From positions 806,001 through 870,000 of the forward strand of contig NZ_CP067100.1 of assembly GCF_016616235.1 (NCBI RefSeq): a stretch of 64,000 bases of DNA. The letters are read 5' to 3'. Positions 7,403 to 46,371 of this stretch are shown in pieces. The stretch comes from Bradyrhizobium diazoefficiens. GTDB taxonomy: Bacteria; Pseudomonadota; Alphaproteobacteria; Rhizobiales; Xanthobacteraceae. How positions within the stretch are numbered: position 1 is the stretch's first letter; each line of letters opens with the position of its first letter. Position numbers and translations under genes: made by a program. The notes under the pieces were generated by a model. That model saw nothing but the letters and a program-made list of their open reading frames with translations. It did no database searches and had not been told where the DNA came from.

Positions 7403-8734
7403 TCACGCCACGTTCTCCTCCGCCGCCGCCTCCGCATGCGGCCCGACCGGCATCGGCACGGTCACATACACCTTCGGCAGATTCACCGGCCGGTAGTCCG
7501 GCTCCACCGCCATCCGCTTCACCACGCTCTCATGCACATGCGCGCCCTCGGGGATGACGCGCGGCTCGCGATCGGGGATGTAGAAGCCGGCAAACACCTT
7601 CCGGTCGGGCCATTCCTTGTACGTCGCACGCTTCGGCACATACTCCAGCACGCGCCAGGCCGCCGTCATCGAGTTGTGCAATGCGCCCGCCTTGCCGGTG
7701 TATTCAGGCGCGACATATCTAAACGGCGAGTTCTTGCGCGGCACGCCCCAGGCGAGCTGGTTCACGGTGCGCGGATTGAAGTTCAGCCCCGCCTTCGCCG
7801 CCTCCTCGATCATCCAGATCAGCGGCCATTTCGACTCCGCGCTCTCGGCTTCCGGATAGCCGCCGCCGACGTCGCAATGCACGCCGGCGAACCACACCTG
7901 CAAAATATCCTGCGGCTCCTTCTTCTCGTCGGGCACATAGCGGTTGCGCCAGAACTCCTGCGGCTCCCAGTACTCTTTCAGGCGGAACATGCAGCGCCGC
8001 TCGTCGATCGCGATCGCCTGCCGGAAGATCTTGACGCTCGGATTGCGCAGCGTGAAGGCGAGCTCCTCCAGGCTGAACAGATAGAAGAAATTGTCGCGCC
8101 GCGGCACGATCACGCTCGCCACCGTGTCCCAGACGCCGATGAAGTGGATGGTCGGCCAGCGCGTCGAGGTGATGCGCGCGAATTGCGCGGCGAGGTCGAA
8201 CGTGCCCTTCGGCAGCGGCCCCTGCTCGTCGACCGCGATGTCCTTGAGATCGTCGATGTCGTTGCCGCGCCCGGTGCCGGAATATTGCTTGTAGGCGACG
8301 AGCCCCGAGCCTGCGAGGTTCGCCTGCTCCGGCGAGATCAGCCCGATCTTGTGGATCAGCCCCGCCAGCACGCGAACGGTGTAGGCGCCGCGCGAAAAGC
8401 CGAACAGATAGATGCGGTCGCCGGGCGCATAATGCTGGACCAGGAAGCAATAGGCCGAGAGAACGTTGGCATCCAGCCCGTAGCCGGTGGCGAGCCCCAG
8501 CACCAGGTCGATATTGGCCTTGAGCCGGTGCCACGTCGTCGGCTCCGTCACCGTGCCGACCCCGGGGTCGTAAAACACCATCTGCCTGGGATGCGTCCTG
8601 TCGGTCTTGCGCAGGCAGCGATACAGCTTCAGGACGTTGGAGATGCTTTCGCTGATCTCGTTGCCGGTGCCGTCACAGCAGATGACGAGGTGCTTCGGCG
8701 AGGGGTTGTGGTCTGGGTTGGCTGCGTGCTCCAT
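7403..8734 (-). CDS. DUF2235 family alpha/beta-hydrolase
   Basis: 443 residues. DUF2235 proteins are alpha/beta-hydrolase-like and include the Tle1 phospholipases delivered by type VI secretion, but most chromosomal members are uncharacterised. Visible motifs are the N-terminal LVICCDGTGNE and the nucleophile elbow GFSRG with Ser at about residue 114, followed by AYTVRVLAG. The ATG at 8734 follows GGAGGCGCATCCC. No signal peptide, no VgrG, Hcp or immunity gene is nearby, so a secreted-effector role is not supported by context. Lipase or esterase activity is inferred from the family only. Confidence 0.82.
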   Translation of the reverse strand: MEHAANPDHNPSPKHLVICCDGTGNEISESISNVLKLYRCLRKTDRTHPRQMVFYDPGVGTVTEPTTWHRLKANIDLVLGLATGYGLDANVLSAYCFLVQHYAPGDRIYLFGFSRGAYTVRVLAGLIHKIGLISPEQANLAGSGLVAYKQYSGTGRGNDIDDLKDIAVDEQGPLPKGTFDLAAQFARITSTRWPTIHFIGVWDTVASVIVPRRDNFFYLFSLEELAFTLRNPSVKIFRQAIAIDERRCMFRLKEYWEPQEFWRNRYVPDEKKEPQDILQVWFAGVHCDVGGGYPEAESAESKWPLIWMIEEAAKAGLNFNPRTVNQLAWGVPRKNSPFRYVAPEYTGKAGALHNSMTAAWRVLEYVPKRATYKEWPDRKVFAGFYIPDREPRVIPEGAHVHESVVKRMAVEPDYRPVNLPKVYVTVPMPVGPHAEAAAEENVA

Positions 8735-8848
8735 GGGATGCGCCTCCGGGTGATGCTACCGGGGCGAGTATAGCGGAAAATGGGGAGCAAGTTGAGAGTG
8801 ACGCGCATAATTGTTTTCGCGAATCTACTCCAAAATCAATAGCACGCA

Positions 8849-8862
8849 ATTCTCGTGAGAAT
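8849..8862. promoter_or_regulatory. 14-bp palindrome upstream of the defence-gene remnant
   Basis: ATTCTC-GT-GAGAAT is a perfect inverted repeat 12 bp upstream of the ATG at 8875, in an AT-rich stretch between the divergent DUF2235 gene and the OLD-family fragment. It could be an operator or a 5' mRNA hairpin; no factor can be named. Confidence 0.4.
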
Positions 8863-8874
8863 CATAGGGGCGAA

Positions 8875-9024
8875 ATGTACTTAGCTGAATTGTCCATCAA
8901 GAATTTCCGTCGCTTAAGCGAAGCCACCCTTAGATTTGTACCCGGTCTTAACGTGCTCGTCGGTCCAAACAATATTGGTAAGACCGCAGTTGTCGACGCG
9001 CTTAGATGTGGCTTCGGAGGTTAG
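8875..9024 (+). pseudogene. OLD-family ATPase/nuclease (GajA-like), N-terminal fragment
   Basis: Only 49 residues before a TAG at 9022-9024. They are a clear N-terminus of an ABC-type OLD ATPase: LSIKNFRRL at the start and the Walker A motif GPNNIGKT, followed by VVDALR. Full-length relatives carry the rest of the ATPase and a TOPRIM nuclease domain, all missing here. After the Walker A region the sequence continues in another frame for about 25 codons and then enters a helicase fragment, so more than one deletion or frameshift has occurred. The base composition is visibly more AT-rich than the flanks, suggesting acquired DNA. Confidence 0.8.
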
Positions 9025-9081
9025 CGATGCTGCGAAAGCGAGAGTGCTGTTCAGTGGCATGTTTGAGCGCTCGCAAAATAA

Positions 9082-10005
9082 TGTTCAGAAGGGAAGATTT
9101 ACCGGTCTGTACCCACCGTCGTCGAGGTCGCCAATAAGCTGTCGGGACGCTCTGATATCGCCAATCGAACTGCACCTTCGGAGATGAGCGGCGCCTACTA
9201 CATTCCGTACAAGAAGGCGGAGAAAGCCAAGCTACTTGCAGCCTACAAGAGCATGCTTGCATCTGCAGATATCGACGCGAGGGATGCGGTAATCCTCTGT
9301 CGCAGTACGAATTGGGTGGATGAGTGGCGAGGAGGCGGCGAAGCGCAGGGCCAGGGAATTGTAAGGTCGTTTATAGAAGCCACCATTATGCGCGACAAAC
9401 TCGGCCGGTTCGACGAGGCTTTCGACAAGGCCTGTAAAGGTATTGTCGGCTTGTTAGGAGAGGACCATGGCGATCTAGTCGCAGTGCTGAAGAGAGGACA
9501 GCCGCGTGCCACAGCAATTCCTCTGCGGCGAGTCATCTGGTCGTTTGTACGAGGTGCGGACGATGGGTTGCCTTCTGGGAAACTACTCGCCAAGTCGCAG
9601 TGGCATCCGCTCTTGAAGGCTCGGTTGCTTGCGCTGCTTCAACGGTTAGAGACCGAGTTCTCGCTCGCGCCCGCAGATAACGTCGGTCAGAAGTTGGCGA
9701 ACAAGGCCTTGTCCGATGCTCCGATTATCGAGCTATCTGATCTCGCCGGCAACCAAAGCGGGCCTATGCATGTGTCCACAGTTCATCAAGTGAAAGGCGA
9801 GAGCATTAGCGCCGTTATGTACGTTGCTGACAAGGCGCAGGTGCGGAGTATGCTCGACGGAACTCATACCGAGATTGGGCGGATCGGGTACGTTGCAGTC
9901 ACTCGTGCACGTAATCTCTTTGTTCTTGCCGTACCAGAGAGCTGTGTCGAGGATTTTGTGTCTGAGTTCGCTGCGTGCGGATTACTAAAGGCAGGTTCAT
10001 CCTAG
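9082..10005 (+). pseudogene. UvrD/PcrA-like helicase (GajB-like), C-terminal fragment
   Basis: The frame is open from 9082 and meaningful from about 9100, where YRSVPTVVEVANKL matches the YRS..I..FAN block that follows the ATPase domain of UvrD-like helicases. The C-terminal motifs are intact: STVHQVKGES (motif V region) and VAVTRARNLFVLAVP (motif VI, with the arginine finger). The N-terminal Walker A domain is absent. The pairing of an OLD ATPase/nuclease followed by a UvrD-like helicase is the Gabija arrangement (gajA-gajB), though OLD-helicase pairs outside Gabija also exist. An in-frame ATG at 9184 could allow a product of 273 residues, which would lack ATPase function. Confidence 0.75.
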
Positions 10006-10925: not shown

Positions 10926-11801
10926 TTGGAAAGTTTCGTGCTCAGTTCTCCCCGACTTGCGCTCCGGCCGCGCTCGGCTCGCCGGATGGCCTTCGCGGCC
11001 CTGTGCGGGCTCGCCTTGGCGTGGGGCGCGGAGCCCGTGGCGGCGCAGGGCAAGCTCGAGGCGCAGTATGAGGCGACGCTGGCGGGCATTCCGGTCGGCA
11101 AGGGTGCCTGGAACATCGATATTGGGGAGGACGTGTTCTCCGCCGCAGCCTCCGGCGGCACCACGGGGATTTTGAAATCCTTCGCGGGCGGCTCGGGCAC
11201 CGGCGCTTCGCAGGGCCGCGTCGTTGGCGGCGCGCTGGTTGCGACCGCCTACCAGGCCTCCACCACCACCTCGAAGAAGACCGAACAGATCCACATCACG
11301 CTCGACAAGGGCAATGTGAAGGAGTTCGGCATCGTGCCGGAGCCGCCGGTCGATGCCGACCGCATCGTCGTCACCGATGCGCATCGCCGCGGCGTCTGGG
11401 ATCCGATGACGGCCTCGCTGTTGCGCGTGCCCGGCACCGGCGACCCCGTCACGCCGGAGGCCTGCCACAACTCGGCGCCCGTGTTCGACGGCCGCATGCG
11501 CTACGACCTCAAGCTCGATTTCAAGCGCATGGAGAACGTGAAGGCCGAGAAGGGCTATCACGGCCCGGTCGTGGTCTGCGCGCTCTATTTCGTGCCTGTG
11601 GCCGGCTACATCCCCGACCGCCCCGTGATCAAATACCTCGCCGCCCAGCGCAACATTGAGATCGCGTTTGCGCCGGTCGCCGGCACGCGCATCCTGGTCC
11701 CGTTCTGGCTGAAGGTCCCGACGCCGCTGGGGCCGGCGATGCTGGAAGCGACAAGCTTCATCACCTCCGCCCAGCCGCCGCGCGTCGCGAAGACGCAGTG
11801 A
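10926..11801 (+). CDS. DUF3108 exported protein
   Basis: About 291 residues with a hydrophobic signal segment (FAALCGLALAWGA) ending in a VAAQG-like cleavage site near residue 41, so probably periplasmic or envelope-associated. The mature part resembles the DUF3108 family: LEAQYEATLAGIPVGKGAW at the start, DFKRMENVKAEKGYHGPVVVC in the middle and a beta-rich C-terminus. Molecular function is unknown. The start is uncertain: TTG 10926, GTG 10938 (GGAAAG just upstream) and ATG 10987 are all possible. A palindrome immediately follows the stop and may serve as a terminator. Confidence 0.78.
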   Translation: MESFVLSSPRLALRPRSARRMAFAALCGLALAWGAEPVAAQGKLEAQYEATLAGIPVGKGAWNIDIGEDVFSAAASGGTTGILKSFAGGSGTGASQGRVVGGALVATAYQASTTTSKKTEQIHITLDKGNVKEFGIVPEPPVDADRIVVTDAHRRGVWDPMTASLLRVPGTGDPVTPEACHNSAPVFDGRMRYDLKLDFKRMENVKAEKGYHGPVVVCALYFVPVAGYIPDRPVIKYLAAQRNIEIAFAPVAGTRILVPFWLKVPTPLGPAMLEATSFITSAQPPRVAKTQ

Positions 11802-11802
11802 T

Positions 11803-11831
11803 CTTACCCTCCCCCTCCAGGGGAGGGTAAG
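11803..11831. repeat. Short palindrome CTTACCCTCC..GGAGGGTAAG
   Basis: Almost perfect inverted repeat starting 2 bp after the DUF3108 stop. A near-identical copy lies at 53741-53768 after the second SGNH gene. Both positions directly follow stop codons, so a role in transcript termination or mRNA 3'-end protection is plausible although no T-run follows. Confidence 0.65.
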
Positions 11832-11902
11832 AAAGCACGCAAATTCAATGGCTTGCCTACTGTGCATGGGGTTGTTTTCGCAACTTTTGCCTTGCCGCCC
11901 CC

Positions 11903-12110
11903 GAATCCGGGAATCCATTTGACTCCGCCCCGATTCTGATTCGACTCCGCGCCGTCCCCAACTTAACCGATTGCGCCCTCGAAACGCCGCTTGTGCGGCA
12001 GCGCAAAACTCCATCTAGTGCGCACGCAAAACGAGTCCCGCAACATCTTGCGTGAACGGAACGGGACTCCCGGGGGAGTCAGCGATTCGGCCGCGATTCG
12101 TTCTGGAGTC
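11903..12110. other. Dense cluster of 12 GANTC (CcrM) sites in non-coding DNA
   Basis: GANTC begins at 11903, 11911, 11921, 11932, 11938, 11943, 12033, 12065, 12076, 12084, 12095 and 12106. Six fall in 45 bp and five in another 46 bp. The second group contains the palindrome GACTCCC-GG-GGGAGTC (12065-12080) and two copies of GCGATTCG; the first has two copies of GACTCCGC. GANTC is the recognition site of the cell-cycle methyltransferase CcrM. From base composition fewer than one site would be expected in this length. The surrounding gap 11802-12413 has no gene; no DnaA box was seen. Confidence 0.8.
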
Positions 12111-12196
12111 GTTCCGAAGCTTAAAGCGAACGGGAAAAGCGTCGCAAAGTGAGACAGTTGCGCGAGGTTCGGGAAGGCAGCTTCCACACTCACCGT

Positions 12197-12298
12197 GTCA
12201 TCGCCCGGCTTGACCGGGCGATCCAGTACGCCGAGGCGGATGTGGTCGAGCGGACAGGCCGCGGCGTACTGGATGCCCCGGTCAAGCCGGGGCATGAC
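12197..12298. repeat. Long inverted repeat upstream of the helicase gene
   Basis: Arms of about 36 bp: GTCATCGCCCGGCTTGACCG... at 12197-12232 and its imperfect complement ending CGGGGCATGAC at 12298, separated by about 30 bp. The same element, with diverged arms, is at 60939-61040 and one arm is shared with 56343-56446. Confidence 0.75.
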
Positions 12299-12413
12299 CG
12301 CGGAGAGCGGCGCGGCAGCGGAGCGATCGGAGACGCAGCCAACAAGCACCAGTCCCCGACCCGCCCCAAACAGCACTGACATTTGCCCCAATCGCCACTA
12401 CCTAATCCCCCAG

Positions 12414-15400
12414 ATGGCTTTTTCTCCCTCCCCCTTCGCTTCCGAGCGCGCCGCCGGCGCTGGCGTCACTGCGGTGCTCGGGCCGACCAACACCGGCAAG
12501 ACCCATCTCGCCATCGAGCGGATGCTGGCGCATCCCTCCGGGATGATCGGCCTGCCGCTGCGCCTGCTCGCGCGCGAGGTCTACAACAAGATCGCCGACC
12601 GCGCCGGCGTGGAGAGCGTCGCGCTGGTGACCGGCGAGGAGAAGATCAAGCCGAAGAACCCGCGCTACTGGGTCTCCACCGTCGAGGCGATGCCGCGCGA
12701 CCTCGACGTCTCCTTCCTCGCCGTCGACGAGGTCCAGATCGCCTCCGATCTCGAACGCGGCCACGTTTTCACCGACCGGCTGCTCAACCGCCGCGGCCGC
12801 GACGAGACGCTGCTGCTGGGCGCCGCCACCATGCGCCCGATCATCGAGCGGCTCTTGCCGGGCGTCTCCATGATCACGCGGCCGCGCCTGTCGAGCCTCG
12901 AATTCGCCGGCGACCGCAAGATCACCCGCCAGCCGCGCCGCACCGCCATCGTCGCGTTCTCGGCGGATGAAGTCTATGCCATCGCCGAGCTGATCCGCCG
13001 TCAGCATGGCGGCGCCGCCGTGGTGCTGGGCTCGCTCTCGCCGCGCACCCGCAATGCGCAGGTCGCGATGTTCCAGAACGGCGATGTCGACTATCTCGTC
13101 GCCACCGACGCCGTCGGCATGGGTCTCAATCTCGACGTCGACCACGTCGCCTTCGCCTCCGACCGCAAGTTCGACGGCTACCAGTTCCGCCGCCTGACGC
13201 CGGCCGAGTTCGCGCAGATCGCCGGCCGCGCCGGCCGCGCCACGCGCAACGGCACCTTCGGCACCACAGGCCGCTGCGCCCCGTTCGAGCCCGAACTCGT
13301 CAACGCGCTCCAGAACCACACCTTCGACAACGTGAAGGTGCTGCAATGGCGCAACTCGAAGCTGGATTTCGCCTCGCTCGGCGCGCTCCAGGTCTCGCTG
13401 AACCTCGCCCCCGGCCAGGCGCTGACGCGCGCGCCGGTTGCCGAGGACATGCGCGTGCTCGACCATGCCGCCCGCGACGTCGAGGTGCGCGATATCGCGC
13501 ATGGCAAGGCGGCGGTGGAACGGCTGTGGGAGGCCTGCCAGGTCCCGGACTACAGAAAACTGTCCCCGGCGGCCCATGCCGAGCTCGTCACCACGCTGTA
13601 CGGCTTCCTGATGAAGAAGGGCTGCATCCCCGATTCCTGGTTCGCGGCTCAGGTCGACCAGGCCGACCGCATCGACGGCGACATCGACACGCTGTCGGCC
13701 CGAATCGCGCAGATCCGCACCTGGACCTTCGTCGCCAACCGCCCGGACTGGCTGAAGGACCCCGAGCGCTGGCAGGGGATCGCGCGGGAGGTCGAAAATA
13801 AATTATCGGATGCGCTCCACGAACGCTTGACTGAGCGTTTCGTTGATCGCCGGACCAGTGTATTGATGCGCCGCCTGCGGGAGAACACGAGCTTGAATAC
13901 TGAAATCGGCAAGACCGGCGAAGTCATCGTCGAAGGCCATGTCATCGGCCGCCTCGATGGCTTCACCTTTGCACCGGATGCGGCGGAAGCCGGCTCTGAT
14001 GCGAAAGCCTTGCAGGCTGCAGCGCAAGCGGTGCTCGCCGGCGAGATCAACGCGCGCGCCGAAAAGCTCGGCAACGCGCCGGACGAGCAGTTCGTGCTGA
14101 CCTCGGAAGGCATCATCCGCTGGACCGGTGATGCCGTGGCGCGGCTGTCCGCCGCGGACGAGGCGCTGCATCCGCGCATCCGCATCATCTCCGACGAAAG
14201 GCTCACCGGGCCGCCGCGTGACAAAGTGCAGGCCCGCCTCGAGCTCTGGCTCAAGACCCATATCGAAAAACTACTCGGGCCGATGTTCGAGCTGTCGAAG
14301 GCCGAGGACGTCACCGGCATTGCCCGCGGCATCGCCTATCAGCTGGTCGAGGCGCTCGGCGTGCTCGAGCGTCCGAAGATCGCCAACGAGCTGAAGGATC
14401 TCGACCAGCCCTCGCGCGCGACCTTGCGCAAATACGGCGTCCGCTTCGGCGCCTATCACCTCTATTTCCCCGGCCTCTTGAAGCCCGCCGCACGTGCGCT
14501 CGCCGCGCTGTTGTGGGCGCTGAAGCAGGACAATGTCGATCTGTCCTCGCTCTCCGGCGCGCAGCATCTGGCCTCGTCCGGCCGCACCTCGTTCCCGGTC
14601 GACAAGGCTCTGCCGCGCGATGCCTATCGCGTGCTCGGCTACAAGCAGGCTGGCGAGCGCGCCGTGCGCGTCGACATCCTGGAGCGCCTTGCCGATCTGA
14701 TCCGTCCCGCTTTGGCCTGGCGCGAGAACTCGCCCGGCGAAAAGCCCGCCGGCGCGTTCGACGGCCGCAGCTTTGTCGTGACGCAGGCGATGACCTCGCT
14801 CACCGGCTCGGCCGGCGAGGACTTTGCGTCGGTGCTGCGTGCGCTCGGCTATCGCATGGAGAAGCGCCCGCCGCTGCCGCCAAAGCCGGCGGCGCCTGCC
14901 GCGGAGACGGTTGCGGCCGAGACGCCGCCCGCTGAGGGCAGCGCGGAGACCTCGACCGAGACCGCAGCTGAAGCGGTCGCCGGTCTGCCGGCCGAGGCTG
15001 CCGTTTCCGATATGCCCGCTGCTGAAGCCATCACCGTCGAAGACGCGCCGGGCATGGAGCCGCACGACGAGGGAGCGGCCGAAGCGCCGGCGCTCGAAGC
15101 TTCGCCCGAGGCTCCCGTCACGTCCGAGGACGCTCCGGGCATCGCACCGCCGGCGGAAGAACCTGCTGCGCCGACGGGGGAGGCTGCTGGCCTTGAAGCC
15201 GCACCGGCCGAGGCCGCTGCGACGGAAGCCGCCGCATCGGCCGATGCCGCTGCGCCTGTGGAGGCTGCGGCTGCGCCCGCCGAGCCCGAGCTCGTCGAGG
15301 TCTGGCGTCCCGGTGGCCGTCACGAGGACCGCAAGCCGCGCCACGAGCGCCATCGTCACCAACGTCATCAAAATCAGCGCCCGCAGGCCGGTGCCGAGGC

Positions 15401-15851
15401 TGGCGCTGCGCCCGCTGAAGGTGAGGCGGCGCAAGGCACCGACGGCGAGAAGCGTGGCGAGCGCCATCGTCACGGCGGTCATCGTCGCGACGGCGGCAGA
15501 GACTTCCGCAAGCCGCGCGAAGGCGGCGGCGAAGCTGCGCCGCGCCAAGAGGGGCGGGACGACAGGGGGCGTGACGACAGGAATCGTCGCTTCGAAGGCA
15601 AGGATCGTGACAAAGACCGCGACAACAAGGGACGGGACCGCGACAAGGGCAAGTTCGGCGGCGATCGCGACAAGGGCCGCGACAATCGCGGCCGCGACCG
15701 CGACAAGGGGCGTGACCGTCAGGGCGGTCCCTCGCTGCGTCCCTACGCCTCGAGCGCGAACCCGCGCGAGCGCGATCGTCCCGCCGATCCGAACTCGCCC
15801 TTCGCAAAGCTCGCCGCGCTGAAAGAGCAGCTCTCGGGGCGGAAGGAGTAA
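12414..15851 (+). CDS. SUV3-type superfamily 2 RNA helicase with long charged C-terminal tail
   Basis: 1145 residues from ATG 12414. The N-terminal helicase core has Walker A GPTNTGKT at residues 23-30, motif II as VDEVQ (DEVQ instead of DExH), LLGAATMRP (motif III) and QIAGRAGR (motif VI), followed by a SUV3-like C-terminal region to roughly residue 820. This subfamily unwinds RNA; in mitochondria SUV3 works with the degradosome. The last 320 residues are low complexity: an Ala/Pro/Glu-rich part, a His/Arg-rich part, then repeated Asp-Arg-Lys-Gly units ending near residue 1110, likely disordered and RNA-binding. The S4 gene starts a few bases after the stop, suggesting co-transcription and a joint RNA-related role. 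Confidence 0.88.
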   Translation: MAFSPSPFASERAAGAGVTAVLGPTNTGKTHLAIERMLAHPSGMIGLPLRLLAREVYNKIADRAGVESVALVTGEEKIKPKNPRYWVSTVEAMPRDLDVSFLAVDEVQIASDLERGHVFTDRLLNRRGRDETLLLGAATMRPIIERLLPGVSMITRPRLSSLEFAGDRKITRQPRRTAIVAFSADEVYAIAELIRRQHGGAAVVLGSLSPRTRNAQVAMFQNGDVDYLVATDAVGMGLNLDVDHVAFASDRKFDGYQFRRLTPAEFAQIAGRAGRATRNGTFGTTGRCAPFEPELVNALQNHTFDNVKVLQWRNSKLDFASLGALQVSLNLAPGQALTRAPVAEDMRVLDHAARDVEVRDIAHGKAAVERLWEACQVPDYRKLSPAAHAELVTTLYGFLMKKGCIPDSWFAAQVDQADRIDGDIDTLSARIAQIRTWTFVANRPDWLKDPERWQGIAREVENKLSDALHERLTERFVDRRTSVLMRRLRENTSLNTEIGKTGEVIVEGHVIGRLDGFTFAPDAAEAGSDAKALQAAAQAVLAGEINARAEKLGNAPDEQFVLTSEGIIRWTGDAVARLSAADEALHPRIRIISDERLTGPPRDKVQARLELWLKTHIEKLLGPMFELSKAEDVTGIARGIAYQLVEALGVLERPKIANELKDLDQPSRATLRKYGVRFGAYHLYFPGLLKPAARALAALLWALKQDNVDLSSLSGAQHLASSGRTSFPVDKALPRDAYRVLGYKQAGERAVRVDILERLADLIRPALAWRENSPGEKPAGAFDGRSFVVTQAMTSLTGSAGEDFASVLRALGYRMEKRPPLPPKPAAPAAETVAAETPPAEGSAETSTETAAEAVAGLPAEAAVSDMPAAEAITVEDAPGMEPHDEGAAEAPALEASPEAPVTSEDAPGIAPPAEEPAAPTGEAAGLEAAPAEAAATEAAASADAAAPVEAAAAPAEPELVEVWRPGGRHEDRKPRHERHRHQRHQNQRPQAGAEAGAAPAEGEAAQGTDGEKRGERHRHGGHRRDGGRDFRKPREGGGEAAPRQEGRDDRGRDDRNRRFEGKDRDKDRDNKGRDRDKGKFGGDRDKGRDNRGRDRDKGRDRQGGPSLRPYASSANPRERDRPADPNSPFAKLAALKEQLSGRKE

Positions 15852-15855
15852 TCCC

Positions 15856-16134
15856 ACGACGACCGAGCGGCAGCGCATCGACAAATGGCTGTGGCACGCG
15901 CGGGTGGTGAAGGCGCGCACCTCCGCGGCTGAGCTGGTCGTCACCGGCCACGTCCGCGTCAATGGTGAGCGCGAAAAATCGCCGGGCCATGCGGTCAAGA
16001 TCGGCGACGTTCTCACCATCGCGCTCGATCGCACCGTGCGCGTGTTGAAAGTGACCGCCTTCAACGAGCGCCGCGGCGACGCCGCCTCGGCGCGCGTGCT
16101 CTACGAGGAGCTGAGTGAAGCAAAGCGCAATTAA
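15856..16134 (+). CDS. S4-domain RNA-binding protein (HslR/Hsp15-like) with apparent ACG start
   Basis: 92 residues if begun at ACG 15856. The S4 domain starts RIDKWLWHARVVKAR and continues to HVRVNGE, as in Hsp15-type proteins that bind stalled 50S-tRNA complexes or structured RNA. No ATG, GTG or TTG exists in frame between the upstream stop (15820) and GTG 15904; that GTG would remove the first helix of the S4 domain. AAGGAG at 15843-15848 lies 7 nt before the ACG, exactly where a start is expected, so either ACG is used or the ATG has mutated. It follows the helicase stop by 4 bp. Confidence 0.72.
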   Translation, partial: TTTERQRIDKWLWHARVVKARTSAAELVVTGHVRVNGEREKSPGHAVKIGDVLTIALDRTVRVLKVTAFNERRGDAASARVLYEELSEAKRN

Positions 16135-45565: not shown

Positions 45566-46078
45566 TCAGCGGGGACCCGGCTTCGGTGCCGCGCGGCGGC
45601 GATCCGCGGCCGGCTGATACGCAACCCGCGAATGCTGGGCGCAATAGGGCAGGCCCGAGAGCGCCTTGCCACCGCAGAAGAAGAAATCCGGGCTGGAGGG
45701 ATCGCCGACCGGCCAGTGGCAGGTCGCCTCGTTCAGCTCCAGCAGCGACAGGCGCTGGCTCATCGGCACCACGTTGTCGTAGGTGACCGGCTCGGCCTCC
45801 ATCTCGACCTCGAAGGCCTGCGCCAGCGCGGTGTTGCCGCGCGAGATCGGCCGGCTCACCCGCATCATGTGCTGCGCCGGACGCGCCTTGCGCGGCCGGG
45901 GCGCTGCCGATGACGGGCTCTTGGCGCGTCCGGACAGGCCGAGCCTGTGCACTTTGCCGATCACGGCATTGCGGGTCACATTGCCGAGCTCGGCTGCGAT
46001 CTGGCTGGCAGAAAGTCCTGCTTCCCAGAGCTTTTTCAGCTGCTCGACGCGATCATCGGACCAGGTCAAAACCGTCAT
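45566..46078 (-). CDS. gcrA: Cell-cycle transcriptional regulator GcrA
   Basis: 170 residues. The N-terminal helix-turn-helix WSDDRVEQLKKLWEAGLSASQIAAELGNVTRNAVIGKVHRLGLSGR is the GcrA signature and the C-terminal sigma-70-binding domain follows (CHWPVGDP...FCG...YCAQHSRVAY, cysteine/His-rich). GcrA works with sigma-70 at promoters with CcrM-methylated GANTC sites. Its upstream region contains six GANTC sites, so autoregulation or methylation-dependent control is likely. Confidence 0.95.
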   Translation of the reverse strand: MTVLTWSDDRVEQLKKLWEAGLSASQIAAELGNVTRNAVIGKVHRLGLSGRAKSPSSAAPRPRKARPAQHMMRVSRPISRGNTALAQAFEVEMEAEPVTYDNVVPMSQRLSLLELNEATCHWPVGDPSSPDFFFCGGKALSGLPYCAQHSRVAYQPAADRRRAAPKPGPR

Positions 46079-46158: not shown

Positions 46159-46371
46159 GAATCCCTTAAGGCTCGCCGGGCGCGCCTAGAACGCCCGAAC
46201 GTTACGCCGGTACATGAGGACTCTTGGGATCAGAACTGCTGCACGAGATGTCGTATCTGACAAGCCAAACGCTACAATATGGCGTGACTCACGCGCAAGA
46301 GTCCGCCGACTCGCTTCCACATGTTCCGTGGTGAAAATCCCGCAAAATCTGCACCGCAAGACTACGGATTC
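46159..46371. promoter_or_regulatory. Cluster of six GANTC sites in the gcrA-argD intergenic region
   Basis: Sites begin at 46159, 46219, 46286, 46299, 46308 and 46367, all within 213 bp upstream of gcrA and argD. Three fall within 27 bp. This density is several times the level in surrounding DNA. The 455-bp gap holds no other gene. Confidence 0.7.

Follow-up and report, generated by a model that had tools for sequence, protein, structure and literature searches.

The dense cluster of CcrM methylation sites (GANTC) at positions 11903-12110 of the window (by which we mean the whole 64-kb stretch of DNA that was analysed) is the Bradyrhizobium form of an older, multi-block, non-coding element of about 250 bp that lies between a DUF3108 protein gene and a SUV3-type helicase gene. 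The element has a core that is conserved far beyond the genus, it is linked to the helicase gene in most of the loci where it was found, and in some lineages it is present in extra copies. We tentatively read it as a deeply conserved cis-acting DNA element, for which control of the SUV3-type helicase operon from the promoter side seems the likeliest role. The evidence for this reading, and for the explanations that compete with it, is given below.

Density of GANTC sites

A recount found all twelve GANTC sites that the first-pass annotation had placed at 11903-12110, every position being correct, and divided them in the same way into groups of six (11903-11947), one (12033) and five (12065-12110); all four variants of the site (GAATC, GACTC, GATTC and GAGTC) are indeed present. 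The assertion that this number is far above chance was also borne out, since first-order simulation of the 208-bp region with its own dinucleotides (20,000 runs) gave a mean of 1.46 GANTC and a maximum of 8, against the real 12. Over the 64-kb window GANTC is about threefold depleted, with 100 sites observed against a mean of 327.6 expected from 100 dinucleotide shuffles. The genome is a single contig of 7.67 Mb, and a sample of it that consists of 60 stretches plus the window (1.26 Mb of 7,668,734 bases, or 16%) contains 2254 GANTC, or 1.79 per kb. Within this sample no other 208-bp stretch is equally dense and none has more than 6 sites, the next-densest ones holding 6, 5 and 5.

The runner-up in the sample is at contig position 6414744 (6 sites in 208 bp), and the third-ranked tier (5 sites in 208 bp) includes one stretch of the window upstream of gcrA. 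The gcrA gene (45590-46078 (-) and 46159-46371; PF07750, 206 bits) is 33 kb from the element, and its upstream region, with 6 GANTC within about 300 bp, ranks with the densest clusters in the sample.

Organization of the element

The blocks of the element and the genes on either side of it are listed here in coordinates of the window.

10926..11801 (+): DUF3108 protein gene, the upstream neighbor
11911..11947 (+): left block, with GANTC at 11911, 11921, 11932, 11938 and 11943
11963..11968 (+): TTAACC, in the place of the TTAAC block of many relatives; weakly kept in the genus
12012..12020 (+): block CATCTAGTG, family form GATCTnGTG
12033..12069 (+): two less constant GANTC sites, at 12033 (in 43 of 76 genus sequences) and 12065 (in 57 of 76)
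12040..12059 (+): block GCAACATCTTGCGTGAACGG, family form CGAGATATTGCGGTGAACGAA
12076..12115 (+): core, with GANTC at 12076, 12084, 12095 and 12106 (spacing 8-11-11)
12083..12103 (+): YGATTCG-N10-GTTC, the motif shared most widely (97 of 99 distinct copies)
12100..12114 (+): GTTC-N7-GTTC, a LexA-type direct repeat whose spacer carries a GANTC site
12121..12124 (+): TTAA block
12139..12156 (+): right block GCGTCGCAAAGTGAGACA, family form GCGTCGCATTGTGAGACA
12013..12158 (+): stretch matched by the sequence-only model R1 (87 bits)
12414..15851 (+): SUV3-type helicase gene, the downstream neighbor and likeliest target
15904..16134 (+): S4-domain protein gene, next downstream and possibly in the same operon

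We take the TTAAC block at 11963..11968 to be like a CtrA half-site. The DNA of the cluster is non-coding, as had been supposed, in that the best of the six reading frames is open in only 51 of 70 aligned loci (the family set described below). A small protein was rejected as a candidate; its GTG-started frame looks open in one relative, as judged by eye, and stops occur, the frame not being kept because the spacer varies in length and shifts it.

No exact copy of the YGATTCG-N10-GTTC motif turned up in 1.196 Mb of this genome beyond the window or in 0.4 Mb of genome G365. When the 619-base intergenic gap was used as a query against its own genome, the full-length element was found once, one extra short match covered query positions 56-101, and all the other rows were matches to a palindromic repeat near the right end of the query (379-523). 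This intergenic repeat is situated at 12180-12324, between the element and the helicase gene, and is scattered over the genome in dozens of copies (67 rows matched, with both strands counted).

Conservation within Bradyrhizobium

The corresponding gap was fetched by way of the helicase protein from 80 relatives, drawn from a named collection and nearly all labelled Bradyrhizobium; 75 loci were kept, and five that lacked the upstream anchor gene were dropped. Since these loci were found by the helicase protein and not by the element, the genus set is free of search bias. The densest 208-bp stretch contains between 6 and 12 GANTC in every one of the 75 orthologous gaps (12 in 6 of them, 11 in 33, 10 in 17, and 6-9 in 19), and the cluster is therefore kept in the relatives. 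The core motif YGATTCG-N10-GTTC is likewise present in 75 of these 75 gaps found by protein alone, and its presence there, set beside its count of 0 in the sampled background, argues for the cis-acting control element. In a search of a genus sample, 11880-12140 was matched in 259 of 265 genomes (E 0.001); this and the other search counts across genomes are counts among the matches listed.

Spread across the family, order and class

A search of the family with the right half of the element (12035-12170) gave matches in 177 of 248 genomes, which represent 41 of the 47 genera (E 0.001). An alignment of 70 family loci, made up of the 30 best matches and 40 loci fetched by place, with 14 of the 70 from Bradyrhizobium, gives the core consensus GAGTCAGCGATTCGGnCGCGATTCGTTCCGGACTCGTTCC, in which GATTCG at core positions 9-14 and GTTC at 25-28 and 36-39 are invariant in all 70. 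TTCGTTC stays in these loci with a single exception at its C, the later GTTC also stays, and the A of the third core GANTC is retained in 52 loci and lost in 18. The blocks TTGACTC, TTAAC, GATCTnGTG, CGAGATATTGCGGTGAACGAA, TTAA and GCGTCGCATTGTGAGACA stand at near-fixed distances with variable sequence between them, and the set is incomplete in some rows, where one or more blocks are missing. The helicase gene adjoins the element in 30 of the 30 and 38 of the 40 family loci, and the DUF3108 gene is present in 30 and 39 of them, respectively.

In the order, matches to model R1, a sequence-only model of the right half built from 37 sequences, were found in 217 of 297 genomes, from 89 of the 122 genera (E 0.01). 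In a sample of the class (E 0.001) the model matches 18 of 289 genomes, namely this genome, two others of the same order and 15 from other orders; by this model, therefore, the element is found in a minority of genomes outside the order. Of 20 loci fetched from the order, the helicase gene adjoins 17; among the other three, two are second copies in Bradyrhizobium. It also lies beside 15 of 17 loci from the class search (13 of 15 among other orders). Among 99 distinct model-found copies, YGATTCG is present in all 99, GATTCG-N10-GTTC in 97 and GTTC-N7-GTTC in 61, and core sites 1, 3 and 4 have the form GANTC in 40, 40 and 30 of them; because the 99 copies were selected by the model, their invariance is overstated. 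The same applies more generally to the family, order and class loci, where invariance is partly built in because the loci were found with the element itself.

The linkage to the helicase gene in the family, order and class loci counts in favor of an element that controls the helicase. It also overturns the first-pass statement that nothing in the neighborhood explains the cluster, since the GANTC sites turn out to be parts of an element tied to the helicase gene.

Constraint on the individual GANTC sites

A density of GANTC so far above that of the genome might be explained if the set had been selected solely as methylation targets, for titration of CcrM or GcrA, with the rest of the sequence as background. 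Within the genus, 9 of the 12 sites each have one unchanging middle base and are kept in 57-76 of 76 genus sequences (in the left block 11911 in 70, 11921 in 76, 11932 in 62, and 11938 and 11943 in 75 each). Swaps of the middle base between C and G occur only at 12033 (site kept in 43 of 76) and 12106 (66 of 76), and the GANTC at 11903 is found in no other sequence of the set (1 of 76). The fixed middle bases imply that a sequence longer than GANTC is read, and all four variants of the site occur because separate fixed positions hold different letters. Pure selection for GANTC is accordingly rejected for most of the sites.

There are signs of some selection of the kind that had been proposed from the variety of the sites. 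GANTC in the spacer of the LexA-type repeat is kept in 59 of 70 family loci while the other spacer letters vary, its middle base being C in 49 loci and G in 10. In 56 loci from other genera, the 190 bp that precede the core contain 132 GANTC in all where simulation gives 56 on average, part of this excess being a single conserved block, TTGACTC, which lies inside the left block and is common to many other genera. Some selection for GANTC itself is thus favored, and what does not survive of the earlier proposal is the free middle position. The loss of the A of the third site in 18 of 70 family loci, and the second copies (below) that have two GANTC or one and still retain both core motifs, weigh further against the sites having been selected as methylation targets and nothing else, an explanation that we consider very unlikely.

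Extra copies and arrays

Some lineages carry up to four copies of the element, either in tandem (often 200-270 bp apart) or unlinked. Four copies are present at loci L355 (spacings 224-233), L357 (255-266), L336 (203-650) and L350 (202-682), and three at L248. All nine Bradyrhizobium genomes in the order search have two R1 matches each, and the second copy in this genome, at contig 2133332-2133474 (L319 4333-4475), has no adjoining helicase gene. It contains 2 GANTC and the second copy of genome G236 contains 1; GATTCG-N10-GTTC and GTTC-N7-GTTC are retained in both. By eye, the second copy in G236 is near a glutathione-transferase-like reading frame, a remnant of such a frame seems to lie upstream of the second copy in this genome, and the four-copy array of L357 (G559), which has no helicase gene, is beside an acyl-CoA-dehydrogenase-like reading frame.

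Copies without a helicase gene (the second Bradyrhizobium copy and the L357 array) count against helicase control. They are what might be expected of a stand-alone DNA site, single or arrayed, that binds a replication- or chromosome-linked protein, either to recruit it or to titrate it, and that adjoins the helicase gene by descent only. Arrays of two to four copies with spacings as regular as those of L355 and L357, and blocks whose spacing hardly changes while the sequence between them does, are also consistent with such a site. On the other hand, the same helicase gene adjoins most of the loci, those in other orders included, and the position relative to the origin differs, being 0.5 Mb from parS here and inside one replichore in G365. 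We think it possible, and on the unlikely side, that the element is a site of this kind.

Candidate binding proteins

As judged from its sequence, the core joins a CcrM site in an extended GcrA-type form to an overlapping LexA-type repeat. Of the 10 strict YGAKTCG sites in the whole window, three (11937, 12083 and 12094) are in the element. PMC7987155 gives TGATTCG, YGAKTCK and YGAKTCG as proposed extended motifs for activation by GcrA, and says that the GTTC-N7-GTTC sequence of LexA can easily overlap GANTC. The genome encodes four PF07750 (GcrA-family) matches over the cut-off, one of them in the window and the others at contig positions 3766202-3766654, 2781555-2782037 and 4465804-4466070 (the last one short), together with one PF18755 RAMA match over the cut-off that is taken as CcrM-type from its RAMA domain alone. 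The connection to GcrA and CcrM that had been suggested at the outset is therefore plausible, given the three YGAKTCG sites in the cluster and the presence of GcrA homologues and a RAMA-domain protein. LexA is encoded as well, and a GTTC-N7-GTTC repeat is found about 100 bp upstream of the lexA match.

The mechanism that we find best supported, and that we put forward with due reserve, is one in which methylation state and a LexA-like protein together control the helicase operon. Proteins would assemble on blocks held at near-fixed distances, with the direct repeats of the core about one helical turn (11 bp) apart. CcrM-methylated YGATTCG would be read by one partner, probably GcrA with sigma-70 polymerase, and the overlapping GTTC-N7-GTTC by LexA or a LexA-like repressor. 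With its additional GANTC sites the Bradyrhizobium form might give a sensitive readout of the hemimethylated state after fork passage, and expression of the helicase would thereby be tied to replication and DNA damage. What the analysis demonstrates is the element itself with its conservation, its core, its extra copies and its linkage to the gene, whereas its action as DNA, the control of the helicase and the identity of the binding proteins are inferred.

Several observations count against parts of this scheme. GTTC-N7-GTTC is complete in only 61 of the 99 distinct copies and is not rare in this genome (24 in 1.196 Mb), which argues against LexA, and the SUV3-type helicase was not found as an SOS gene in the literature searched. 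A search of 11700-12500 gave 0 sigma-70 promoter matches, with an E. coli-type consensus that may not suit this organism, and this counts against the promoter reading. GcrA of Brevundimonas subvibrioides, as described in PMC7987155, has beyond GANTC only a slight preference for a preceding C, which argues against a simple GcrA promoter.

RNA genes and replication origins

The number of copies, their tandem arrays and their constant orientation toward the helicase gene resemble those of small-RNA loci, and the element is non-coding, so that the conserved blocks might be the promoter and transcript of a gene for a non-coding RNA, single or arrayed. A conserved RNA fold was nevertheless rejected; the consensus fold of the right-hand 148 positions in 37 sequences reaches only -3.74 kcal/mol and has no compensatory pair. 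No Rfam family scored over its curated threshold in the stretch from the window or in 14 relatives, and the weak miRNA matches in that search fall on the palindromic repeat (12203-12292). Neither an E. coli-type terminator nor a sigma-70 match was found in the window. An RNA gene thus seems quite improbable, and the missing fold counts in favor of an element that probably acts as DNA. EcpR1, a small RNA of the Rhizobiales, was also rejected as an identity, since it is at another locus (the divK-pleD/rpmG gap).

Many methylation sites within about 200 bp recall the GATC-rich oriC of E. coli, and octamer bias leaves a broad origin region (7.45-0.9 Mb) that includes the element. Against a chromosomal replication origin, there is no DnaA-box-like match in the element with up to one mismatch allowed (in agreement with the first-pass annotation, which saw no DnaA boxes), and perfect parS sites, three in number, are found not here but at 0.3105 Mb, with parB at 0.3146 Mb. 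In G365 the skew does not change sign at the element (2.66 Mb), being negative to its left and right and also at 2.88 Mb, and it is positive from 0, which places the element inside one replichore and away from the skew switch. An origin was rejected on these grounds as extremely improbable, and with it the suggestion of a replication-linked locus in that sense. In this contig dnaA is at the start, parS and parB are at 0.31 Mb and hemE, a neighbor of oriC in other alphaproteobacteria, is at 6.208 Mb.

Comparison with known systems

The CcrM/GcrA promoters of the Caulobacterales (for example ctrA P1) resemble the element in having intergenic GANTC upstream of a gene, here in the extended form YGAKTCG. 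According to PMC8116508, up to five or six GANTC are present within 300 bp upstream of ctrA in some orders; the element differs in having double that number of sites within less DNA, in being a long multi-block sequence kept across orders, in its target gene and in the lack of a match to a promoter consensus, and its binding of GcrA is a prediction from sequence. Alphaproteobacterial LexA (SOS) boxes are similar in that GTTC-N7-GTTC is present upstream of the helicase gene in 70 of 70 family loci and has the same form upstream of lexA, whereas here the repeat is only part of an element, is not always complete in the wider copies and mostly holds a CcrM site in its spacer. EcpR1 (PMC4414408) is, like the element, a conserved non-coding locus of the order and is linked to gcrA control, and it has strong stem-loops where the element has none.

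In E. coli, the GATC clusters of oriC are read by SeqA, and datA and DARS are protein-box sites. Like the element, they are short and non-coding, with a fixed layout in which methylation sites or protein boxes are closely packed; the element differs in its methylation site, in having no DnaA-box cluster and in its non-origin position, and we know of no SeqA-like reader for it. A more far-reaching form of the control-element reading, which we regard as unlikely, is that YGATTCG-N10-GTTC-N7-GTTC with its fixed-distance blocks is a new class-wide DNA element, modular and tandem-repeatable, that would combine a LexA-like signal with a readout of the methylation state after fork passage, be tied to the SUV3-type helicase, and perhaps be an alphaproteobacterial counterpart of sequestration or of datA/DARS.

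No description of the element was recognised in Rfam or in the literature searched, a scope outside which most subscription papers lie. Origins, centromeres and RNA genes are what such well-kept non-coding sequence usually turns out to be when it is shared by bacterial orders; in this case neither the origin tests nor the search for a structured RNA gave a positive result. The element is a short stretch, easily mutated, that could show if the SOS repressor and CcrM methylation come together at a single site, and it also raises the question of why a SUV3-type helicase would need control of the methylation or SOS type. Elsewhere in the window, a frame at 9184-10005 (+) resembles by eye the C-terminal part of a UvrD-like helicase, and it lies in a stretch of lower G+C (0.576 in 8001-10000).
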